Positions 24,073 through 26,789 of a stretch of 64,000 nt of DNA are shown here, one piece after another; within the stretch, counting starts at the first letter, position 1, and each line of letters starts with the position of its first letter. Origin of the DNA: Methylomonas koyamae (GTDB lineage Bacteria > Pseudomonadota > Gammaproteobacteria > Methylococcales > Methylomonadaceae); assembly GCF_019669905.1 (NCBI RefSeq), contig NZ_AP019777.1, positions 3,658,001 to 3,722,000 on the forward strand, read 5' to 3'. The translations under genes were made by a program, and so were the position numbers. Under the pieces are notes generated by a model, which had not been told where the DNA came from, ran no database searches, and worked only from the letters and a program-made list of their open reading frames with translations.

Positions 24073-24255
24073 AAAAAAGCCCACCTAAGTGGGCTTCGTC
24101 CGGTTTTATTTGTTATGTGTTGGACGCCTACCGCGCGATACGGCAGGTTAATGGCTTGCGTTTATTATTGTTGTTCTACCAGATAACTGGTCGCTTTCCT
24201 CCCTCCCCCTATTGGCAGGAAGCGCCTCTTGCGAAGCGACCAACCTACTCAAGGT
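24073..24255 (-). ncRNA. Candidate intergenic small RNA, about 183 nt
   Basis: This minus-strand transcript is predicted from a near-consensus promoter at 24262-24290 and a textbook terminator (stem 24079-24094, then six U). Between them lies clear structure. A nine-base stem TGGTCGCTT/AAGCGACCA encloses a G-rich loop with GGGGGAGGGAGG. A small CCAG-TTAT-CTGG hairpin competes with its last bases. An A-rich unpaired stretch (AACAACAATAATAAACG) follows, then a CCTGCCG/CGGTAGG hairpin at 24127-24147. No open reading frame of note runs through it. I compared it from memory with 6S, tmRNA, 4.5S, RNase P and Rsm RNAs and found no match. Confidence 0.72.
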
Positions 24256-24261
24256 GGACGC

Positions 24262-24290
24262 ATTGTAGGGGATAAAAAAACCGATGTCCA
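24262..24290 (-). promoter_or_regulatory. Sigma-70 promoter of the candidate small RNA
   Basis: On the minus strand TGGACA (5 of 6 matches to the -35 consensus) and TACAAT (5 of 6 to the -10) are separated by exactly 17 bases. It is among the best promoters in the window and has no protein gene behind it. Confidence 0.75.
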
Positions 24291-24418
24291 GAAAAACTGC
24301 GACGTTTTGTCGCATACCCTGCCACACCTTGAATCTTAAGGCTTACAGCCGTTCGGAGCGGATGAGTTCGCCGTGTATTTGCCCGGTTTCGAATCTTGGC
24401 CTGGCCGTCGCTGCCTGC

Positions 24419-24700: not shown

Positions 24701-25498
24701 ATGATCGCGGAATTCATACACTACCTGGGTACACGGACCAATCCAGGCGCGCGACGATTGGGTTACGCCGGCGAAGCAGCCGCCTTGGAAGCCCGCCACC
24801 GCCGCTGCCGGGAGGCCTGGTTACCGCATTTGGCCGCCACCCGAGCCGCCTTGCTGCGCGCCGCCGAACTGGCTCATCCGAATTCGGGCGACGCTTTGCT
24901 GGTCGGCGGCGGCAGCGTCCACGATCTGCCGCTCGCCGAGTTAATGGACCGGTTCGACCGCATCGTGTTATTGGACATTGCTTTCGGCGTCGAGGCCCGG
25001 CGCTTGGCCAAACGTTGGCCGAAGCGGTTGCGGCTATGCCGCCACGACGTCACCGGCATCGTCGATTGGCTGGCAAAACACCGCAGCCTGCCGCCCGCCG
25101 AATTGCTTAGCCGCCCCGTGTTGCCGCAACTTGACATACCCCCCGGCTGGGTCGCGTCGGTGAACTGCCTGACGCAATTGCCGCTGCTGCCGCTAAATTA
25201 CCTAGCCGGCCGCATAGTCGACGAATCCGCGCTCGAGGCATTCGGCCGAGCGCTGGTACAAGGCCATTTGCATTGGTTGCAAGCGTGGCGCGTGCCGATT
25301 TGCCTGGTCACCGAAGTCGAGGACCGGCAGTTCGACCGGGACGGGGTATTGACGAGCGGCACCGACTACCGCGCCTTACTGCAAGGGTTTACAACCGATG
25401 CCGCACGCATCGGCCGCTGGCCGTGGCTGATTCATCCGCCGGGCGAACTGGCCGACGGCCGCCACGAAAGCAGAATTGTCGAAGCTTGGTGCCTTTGA
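24701..25498 (+). CDS. Unknown 265-residue protein, methyltransferase-like
   Basis: I do not recognise the family. Residues about 63-75 read GDALLVGGGSVHDLP and residues 83-95 DRFDRIVLLDIAF. This is a glycine-rich loop followed by a strand ending in an acidic residue, the order seen in Rossmann-like S-adenosylmethionine methyltransferases. There is no signal peptide or membrane segment. A later VASVNCLTQLPLLPLNYLA segment would fit the strand after the cofactor site. It stands alone on the plus strand, opposite to the small acyl-carrier-like gene. Function is unknown. Confidence 0.6.
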   Translation: MIAEFIHYLGTRTNPGARRLGYAGEAAALEARHRRCREAWLPHLAATRAALLRAAELAHPNSGDALLVGGGSVHDLPLAELMDRFDRIVLLDIAFGVEARRLAKRWPKRLRLCRHDVTGIVDWLAKHRSLPPAELLSRPVLPQLDIPPGWVASVNCLTQLPLLPLNYLAGRIVDESALEAFGRALVQGHLHWLQAWRVPICLVTEVEDRQFDRDGVLTSGTDYRALLQGFTTDAARIGRWPWLIHPPGELADGRHESRIVEAWCL

Positions 25499-26103: not shown

Positions 26104-26789
26104 TTACCCCAAGCCACAAGGCGGATTTAGGATAATGGCCTCTGCGTTCCGTTCGGCAATCGCCGTGTGAGCGTGCTTGGTATCTTAGGCGCCATCGCCA
26201 CTGACGGCATCGATCCGTTCATTTTGAGGAATCTGGTTGAGCAAATCCGGCAATACCTGGGCATCACCGATACGATTCGATGTGACTTCAATCGCTCGAA
26301 TTTCCAGCGTTTCGGCGTCGATACCCAAATGAACCTTGCGCCACTGGCGACGATACTCGGCACCGTGCTTCTTGGTTTTCCATTTATGCCCTTTGGGTAT
26401 CACCCAGCATTTTCACGCCGGTACTATCGACCAGCAAATGCAAGCCATTTGGATTAGGGCGATAGGCAATGCAAACCTGCAAACGCTGCTGGCGACGACA
26501 TAATGTGGAGTAATCAGGCGTCGGCCAATCCAGACAGGATAGTTTCAATAAGCTTTCCGCCATGCCGGTGACTTGCCGGAGCGCCAACCCAAATAGATTC
26601 TTAACCATGAGGCAAAACTGAATGGCGGCATCAGAAAATTTTTCTGCTCGCTCCCGCTTTCCGCTGGCGACTGCTAACCAGTCCATTTCTTTATCTATCC
26701 AGAGTAAAAAGCGAACCGCGTTGCTTCAAGGATCGGTTGTAATCTCGCCAGTTCGTGGTTCGGTATTTGATGGATTGGGGCTTTGGCAT
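26104..26789 (-). pseudogene. IS5-family transposase remnant
   Basis: The frame begins at 26789 (MPKPQSIKYRTTNWRDYN). It shifts at an A run (26706-26710, one extra base), continues with AEKFSDAAIQFCLMVKNLF to VDSTGVKMLGD, and shifts again near 26398. It resumes with WKTKKHGAEYRRQWRKVHLG, the conserved IS5 core with the first DDE Asp region upstream of it. After AVSGDGA a TAA replaces the usual Tyr codon before DTKHAHTAIAERNAEA. Similarity ends soon after, without the C-terminal glutamate region. Two frameshifts, one stop and a truncation make it clearly inactive. Confidence 0.85.

Follow-up and report, generated by a model that had tools for sequence, protein, structure and literature searches.

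ARN repeats constitute the motif bound by the distal face of Hfq (PMC4104026), and class II small RNAs (sRNAs) bind both the distal and the proximal face of this protein (PMC7145675). In Pseudomonas, Hfq is sequestered by the RNA CrcZ (PMC9890229). For Methylococcales, no natural regulatory sRNA emerged from the literature surveyed. The transcriptome of Methylomonas DH-1 lists rnpB, 6S, SRP RNA and tmRNA (PMC6373157), and two Rfam sRNAs were reported in Methylosinus, an alphaproteobacterial methanotroph (PMC12403871). Further, the sRNA in PMC7720504 is synthetic, small RNAs were removed during the RNA preparation in PMC11072679, and the word methanotroph is absent from PMC9029176.

The locus described here lies in a 64-kb stretch of Methylomonas koyamae DNA (hereafter, the window). 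With the class II sRNAs ChiX, MgrR, CyaR and McaS, its predicted RNA shares an intrinsic terminator with a U-tail and single-stranded ARN/AAY tracts in the body; it differs from them in having no Rfam match and in the two A-rich loops present in most RNAs of the family's core type (see below). With CrcZ and CrcY, the Hfq/Crc decoys of Pseudomonas, it has in common its own terminator and repeated AAYAAYAA-type tracts between hairpins. However, CrcZ is about twice as long as the new RNA, which also lacks an Rfam match and has a sigma-70-like promoter.

Table 1. Positions of the sRNA gene and its associated elements in the window.
Feature	Position	Strand	Remarks
Palindrome TGCGACAAAACGTCGCA, candidate transcription-factor box (RegA/PrrA/RegR-like)	24298..24314	minus	consensus TGCGACAAATTGTCGCA
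-35 hexamer TGGACA	24285..24290	minus	highly conserved in alignment
-10 hexamer TACAAT	24262..24267	minus	TAnAAT conserved
sRNA gene, paralog type (class A), ~185 nt	24073..24257	minus	start inferred from promoter
Hairpin 1 (ACCU...AGGU)	24243..24255	minus	from fold; helix 1: double changes at 3/4 pairs, 82.7% of cells paired
Hairpin 2, sequence variable	24222..24242	minus	from fold; helix 2: double changes at 6/6 pairs, 77.6% paired
G-rich linker AGGGGGAGGGAGGAAAG	24194..24210	minus	from alignments; run length varies among copies
GCG/CGC stem around hairpin 3 and A-rich tract 1	24158..24194	minus	helices 3 and 4: 94.3% and 98.2% paired
Hairpin 3 (ACCAG..CUGGU)	24191-24178	minus	one pair with G-C/A-U/U-A exchange
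A-rich tract AACAACAAUAAUAA, candidate Hfq distal-face site	24162..24175	minus	AAYAAYAA far above shuffles in both sets
Hairpin 4 (CCUGCCG...CGGUAGG)	24127..24147	minus	helix 5: double changes at 6/7 pairs, 93.3% paired
Stem CGUCC/GGACG around A-rich loop 2	24097..24126	minus	helix 6: 99% paired, no double changes in set
Intrinsic terminator, stem AAGCCCAC/GTGGGCTT into TTTTTT	24073..24096	minus	helix 7, 100% paired

The initial annotation had proposed, on the minus strand, a promoter TGGACA-N17-TACAAT followed by about 183 bases and then a stem with six U. Both hexamers were confirmed (24290-24285 and 24267-24262, with a spacer of 17). Counted from CCACC (24257) up to and including the sixth T (24073), the transcript would measure 185 bases, with the stem running into TTTTTT. 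The A-rich single-stranded stretch that it had also described proved to be real (24175-24162), and few parts of the family are better conserved. The predicted fold has an energy of -65.8 kcal/mol (z -4.0), which none of 200 shuffles equalled. Pattern scans performed by themselves were near chance, both for promoters (one site in 2.5 kb vs. 0.9 expected) and for terminators (five sites vs. 3.9 expected); the five terminator-like sites listed include the upstream palindrome and miss the terminator of the window RNA itself. It is because promoter, stems and terminator are conserved in relatives that the case for this RNA rises above chance, and the 185-base stretch looks like a genuine sRNA gene.

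A DNA search of the genus yielded matches in 33 of 37 genomes, with 1-8 matches each; 26 of the 33 contained at least two and up to eight, some of the matches being fragments of one copy. In an alignment of 51 copies, promoter included, the best conserved elements were the -35 region (TTTTTCTGGACA), the -10 region, GCGACC..GGTA, the A-rich stretch, GCGTCC, GGAC and the terminator; hairpin 2 and the loops varied. Realignment of 41 of the 51 copies gave the set A1, from which the covariance model R1 was derived; two of its rows (L030 and L042:3956) were later shown to be of the core type. On A1, 92.9% of the cells of a 37-pair structure were paired, compared to 27-45% for slid versions, a comparison in which the structure is favoured since it was drawn from a single row. 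Changes on both sides were seen at 18 pairs and in 70 cells, against 11.7 and 22.8 in shuffles, where the relatedness of the rows favours the observed values. The double changes in hairpins 1, 2, 3 and 4 and in the terminator are the stronger evidence; none occurred within A1 in the GCG/CGC and CGUCC/GGACG stems. At the position of helix 6, other pairings are found in many core RNAs. Compensatory changes, for which the initial annotation had suggested aligning relatives, are present in the 37-pair structure. The longest G run per RNA ranged from 3 to 8 in A1 and from 3 to 11 in 62 core RNAs. We also observed that the homopolymer G run of the linker varies between copies (L128 2001-2170 and others; 3 to 11), as if it were prone to slippage.

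The window RNA scored 166 bits against R1, a model whose training set of 41 copies included the window copy itself. Two further copies reside in the same genome, at C1:684220-684405 (152 bits) and, more distant, at C1:3047648-3047841 (83 bits). At E<=1e-3, R1 matched 107 of 151 genomes of the family and 139 of 201 of the order. A second model, R2, was built from A2, an alignment of 43 rows of distant-type sequences from many genera, and is mainly a sequence profile because its RNAalifold structure kept just the terminator stem. R2 detected the RNA in 157 of the 201 sampled order genomes and in 40 of 48 genera, while the remaining 44 genomes gave no match at the same threshold (E<=1e-4). The matches fall in families f1, f2, f4, f5 and f6 of the order, and none was obtained in the listed genomes of f3, f7 and f8; R1 gave a single weak match in f7 (G198, E 4e-4). 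On a class-wide sample of 369 genomes, R2 matched 11 at E<=1e-3, three of them strongly, and these three are members of the order. Outside it, the matches in the remaining eight genomes were weak (E 6e-5 to 1e-3); three spanned the full length and five just the 3' part. As far as sampled, the RNA family thus appears essentially confined to Methylococcales.

No Rfam family accounted for these sequences. When the whole window was searched against Rfam 15 at the gathering score, as the initial annotation had recommended, three tRNAs and nothing else were returned, and in 20 loci with R1 matches the same threshold revealed only tRNAs. In a lax scan, the best match of the window RNA was isrB, with 24 bits vs. 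a cut-off of 35; isrB, Trp_leader, Phe_leader, rsmX and anti-hemB all stayed below cut-off, and all fell in the 3' half of the RNA. The Trp_leader match recurs, also below cut-off, at the 3' end of core RNAs. 6S RNA (RF00013) resembles the window RNA in size (~185 nt), but was absent from its Rfam matches, strict or lax. In addition, 6S RNA is shaped as one long rod, unlike the window RNA with its several hairpins in series. On sequence evidence, this is a new, uncatalogued RNA family that spans most of Methylococcales. The idea of an unassigned sRNA conserved in methanotrophs thereby gains support from the order-wide distribution, the three copies in this genome, the compensatory changes and the missing Rfam match.

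Clustering of the neighbouring genes separated two types. The distant type follows a bepA-like gene on its 3' side, in the same orientation, in 38 of 46 loci and also at L030; the encoded protein, with its M48 and TPR domains, reaches 411 bits against NCBIfam BepA (cut-off 570). In an independent test, bepA loci were fetched by protein from named genomes, and in 66 of the best 80 of 125 such loci this core RNA was located immediately past the 3' end of bepA, in the same orientation. The RNA was lacking in 14 of the 80; in two of these the sequence stops no more than 130 bases from the bepA match. The 62 core RNAs used throughout come from 67 matches at these loci (best 80 of 125), with L208, L238, L260 and both L239 matches omitted. 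The core gene is present, for example, in Methylomonas, Methylobacter, Methylotuvimicrobium buryatense 5G and Methylovulum, and in the genome studied here its copy sits between bepA and spoT. The window copy belongs to the dispersed type, paralogs with differing neighbours. Among cultured methanotrophs, Methylobacter tundripaludum carries the family alongside M. buryatense 5G, and the occurrence in most sampled order genomes, cultured species included, opens a route into the post-transcriptional control of methane oxidisers. As a separate observation, paralog expansion is strong in single genomes, with eight matches in G009 and six in G138. Such expansion, up to eight matches per genome, together with an added promoter box makes this family a case of sRNA duplication and rewiring.

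The position of the core copy in the 66 loci mentioned, directly behind bepA and in its orientation, speaks for an element that acts in cis on the neighbouring gene (crt in the window, bepA for the core copy) or derives from its 3' UTR. This explanation is nevertheless very unlikely, considering that the aligned copies of both types preserve promoter elements, that a separate terminator closes each type, that the neighbours of the paralogs differ, and that 245 bases separate the terminator of the window RNA from the desaturase start. Even less credible is a short mRNA for a small protein. An SD-like GGAGG is present, and a TTG that starts an ORF of 8 aa or more is common to 19 of 41 A1 rows, another one to 15 of 31 core rows; yet no ATG/GTG start column is common to more than 4 of 41 rows (A1) or 6 of 31 (A5), and the pattern of variation is that of stems.

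Two other readings concern the G-rich elements of the RNA. Like RsmX/Y/Z and CsrB/C, the family is multi-copy, has multiple hairpins and contains GGA, which in a CsrA/RsmA sponge would titrate CsrA from loops and linkers. Indeed, csrA was found once in this genome, GGA occurs in all 41 A1 rows and all 62 core RNAs, and an ANGGAN hexaloop (at least four closing pairs, first 34 bases) in 18 of the 62. However, neither GGA (3.32 vs. 3.51 in shuffles for A1; 2.82 vs. 2.81 for core RNAs) nor ANGGA (0.73 vs. 1.13 and 0.92 vs. 0.96, respectively) is enriched, which argues against a sponge. Also, the hexaloop is found in none of the 41 A1 rows, core RNAs hold 1-6 GGA each, mostly 2-4, and the rsmX score of 15.7 bits is far under the cut-off of 56, so that we consider this possibility improbable. 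Somewhat less so, though still unlikely, is simple antisense regulation, in which the G-rich linker would base-pair with C-rich sites in mRNAs and the A-rich tracts would be mere spacers. The linker does stay G-rich between hairpins 2 and 3, and on the same strand a neighbouring stretch that resembles a transcript has UUCCCCCUCUU, the exact complement of the core linker consensus AAGAGGGGGAA. Against this, the length and register of the G run vary (3-11), unlike a fixed seed, and the conservation of AAY triplets in the A-rich tracts goes beyond the needs of a spacer. The adjacent C-rich stretch was discarded as a pairing partner, given that its whole-length duplex with the RNA was no better than chance (matched or bettered by 282 of 300 shuffles); it was present in just 4 of 61 genomes, the one under study included, a fifth match being terminator only.

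AAYAAYAA occurred 2.34 times per RNA in A1 vs. 0.06 in dinucleotide shuffles, and 5.0 vs. 0.07 times in the 62 core RNAs. Two AAN tracts were present in 51 of the 62, unpaired in the consensus of 43 core RNAs, and those of the window RNA are unpaired in its predicted fold. Judged by sequence and predicted structure, the RNA displays the class II combination of single-stranded ARN tracts in the body and a poly-U 3' end, and the repeated AANAANAA motifs typical of CrcZ were found as well. The linker of many core RNAs (GAGGAGGA) is also readable as AGG repeats, i.e. ARN. The genome holds one hfq. E. coli Hfq has Tyr25 and the rim RRER; the protein encoded here reads VSIFLVNGIKLQG, with Phe at the Tyr25 position and the rim RKEH, and therefore its faces may bind differently. 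Crc is ExoIII-like but devoid of the catalytic residues. Two homologs (43% and 29% identity) were considered as a Crc partner in this genome and rejected, both keeping the ExoIII-type motifs LQE, GDWN/GDFN and SDH; neither is recognisable as Crc.

Given the AAY enrichment, the ARN distal-face motif, the class II and CrcZ precedents and the single hfq gene, an Hfq-bound RNA is favoured. The gene would probably encode a trans-acting regulatory RNA of the new Methylococcales family that is bound by Hfq, either class II-like or Hfq-titrating, although the Hfq faces (Phe, RKEH) may bind differently and the tracts could bind another protein. The core copy would be transcribed from an AT-rich, sigma-70-like promoter. 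The U-tail would contact the proximal face and the AAY/ARN tracts the distal face, loading the RNA on Hfq as with class II sRNAs or CrcZ. The bound RNA might then either use its G-rich linker to pair with C/U-rich sites in mRNAs, or compete with A-rich mRNAs for Hfq. Any regulatory role of the window RNA is putative. A larger scheme, which we regard as doubtful, would be an order-wide Hfq-titrating system in which the bepA-associated core RNA and paralogs under redox control (RegA-type) would jointly set the amount of free Hfq, a CrcZ-like global switch without Crc.

The box upstream of the window copy recurs among the paralogs: TGCGACAAATTGTCGCA was found at <=3 mismatches in 44 of the 51 aligned copies, and in 45 of them the end of the best box-like site is 7-8 bases ahead of the best -35 match. 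Copies without it (7 of 51) are L030, both L042 copies, L044, L045, L049 and L050, two of which are core-type. In other genera, the box was present at <=2 mismatches in eight of nine loci with assigned starts, the miss being L145, and, in a further set, in all seven loci (of ten) for which the terminator pattern was found, two of these being the same places. None of the 62 core upstream regions had it (best 6-9 mismatches); these are T-rich, with TAGACA/TGGACA. The palindrome scans as the terminator of another transcript, with at least four T within 8 bases after it in 39 of 44 copies. Nevertheless, all seven arm pairs are possible as RNA in just 14 of 44 boxes and an uncompensated C/A occurs at one pair in 16 of 44, and we therefore prefer a candidate protein-binding site to a terminator stem.

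The box fits the published RegA/PrrA/RegR motifs, but these are degenerate, with 133, 21 and 14 equally good sites in the 64-kb window. A regulator of the RegA/PrrA family is encoded (helix HRRTLQRKL), scoring 186-187 bits vs. the NCBI cut-off of 250; this RegA/RoxR-type response regulator at G000:C1:840484-840990 (L283) adjoins a membrane sensor kinase. The kinase looks RegB-like. We hypothesise that RegA controls the paralogs via the palindrome; more weakly inferred than the Hfq steps, paralogs such as the window copy would be switched by a RegA/RoxR-type redox regulator. A search of the genome at <=3 mismatches retrieved 38 matches vs. 35 for the reversed pattern, and at <=2 mismatches two paralog boxes and one site before a putative TonB-receptor gene. 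With the estimate for <=2 mismatches also near chance, a wider regulon of the box in this genome was dismissed.

The window RNA has as neighbours two CrtI-family desaturase genes and an aldehyde dehydrogenase gene, and the initial annotation, which placed the RNA just upstream of the carotenoid operon on the same strand, had envisaged a conserved methanotroph regulator. The conserved RNA held up; a special tie to the carotenoid genes is unsupported: among the clustered neighbourhoods, this one is common to just four close loci (L001-L004), other copies lying elsewhere, and when pairing of the linker with the translation starts of 52 window ORFs was ranked, the first CrtI-family desaturase came last (-9.2 kcal/mol). 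A regulator of the carotenoid operon was therefore set aside as unsupported.

Other elements of the surroundings were also recorded. The C-rich stretch upstream is a second likely small transcript (24542-24420, minus strand), with TATAACT, C-rich AGTTCCCCCTCTTTGACA and, ahead of a T run, a terminator GCCCCGG..CCGGGGC; it matches suhB/mmgR weakly (E 0.045). A 265-aa ORF at 24701-25498 on the plus strand had no Pfam or NCBIfam match at E 0.001. Finally, overlapping ORF pieces are located at 26127-26686 on the minus strand and resemble a split insertion-sequence transposase.
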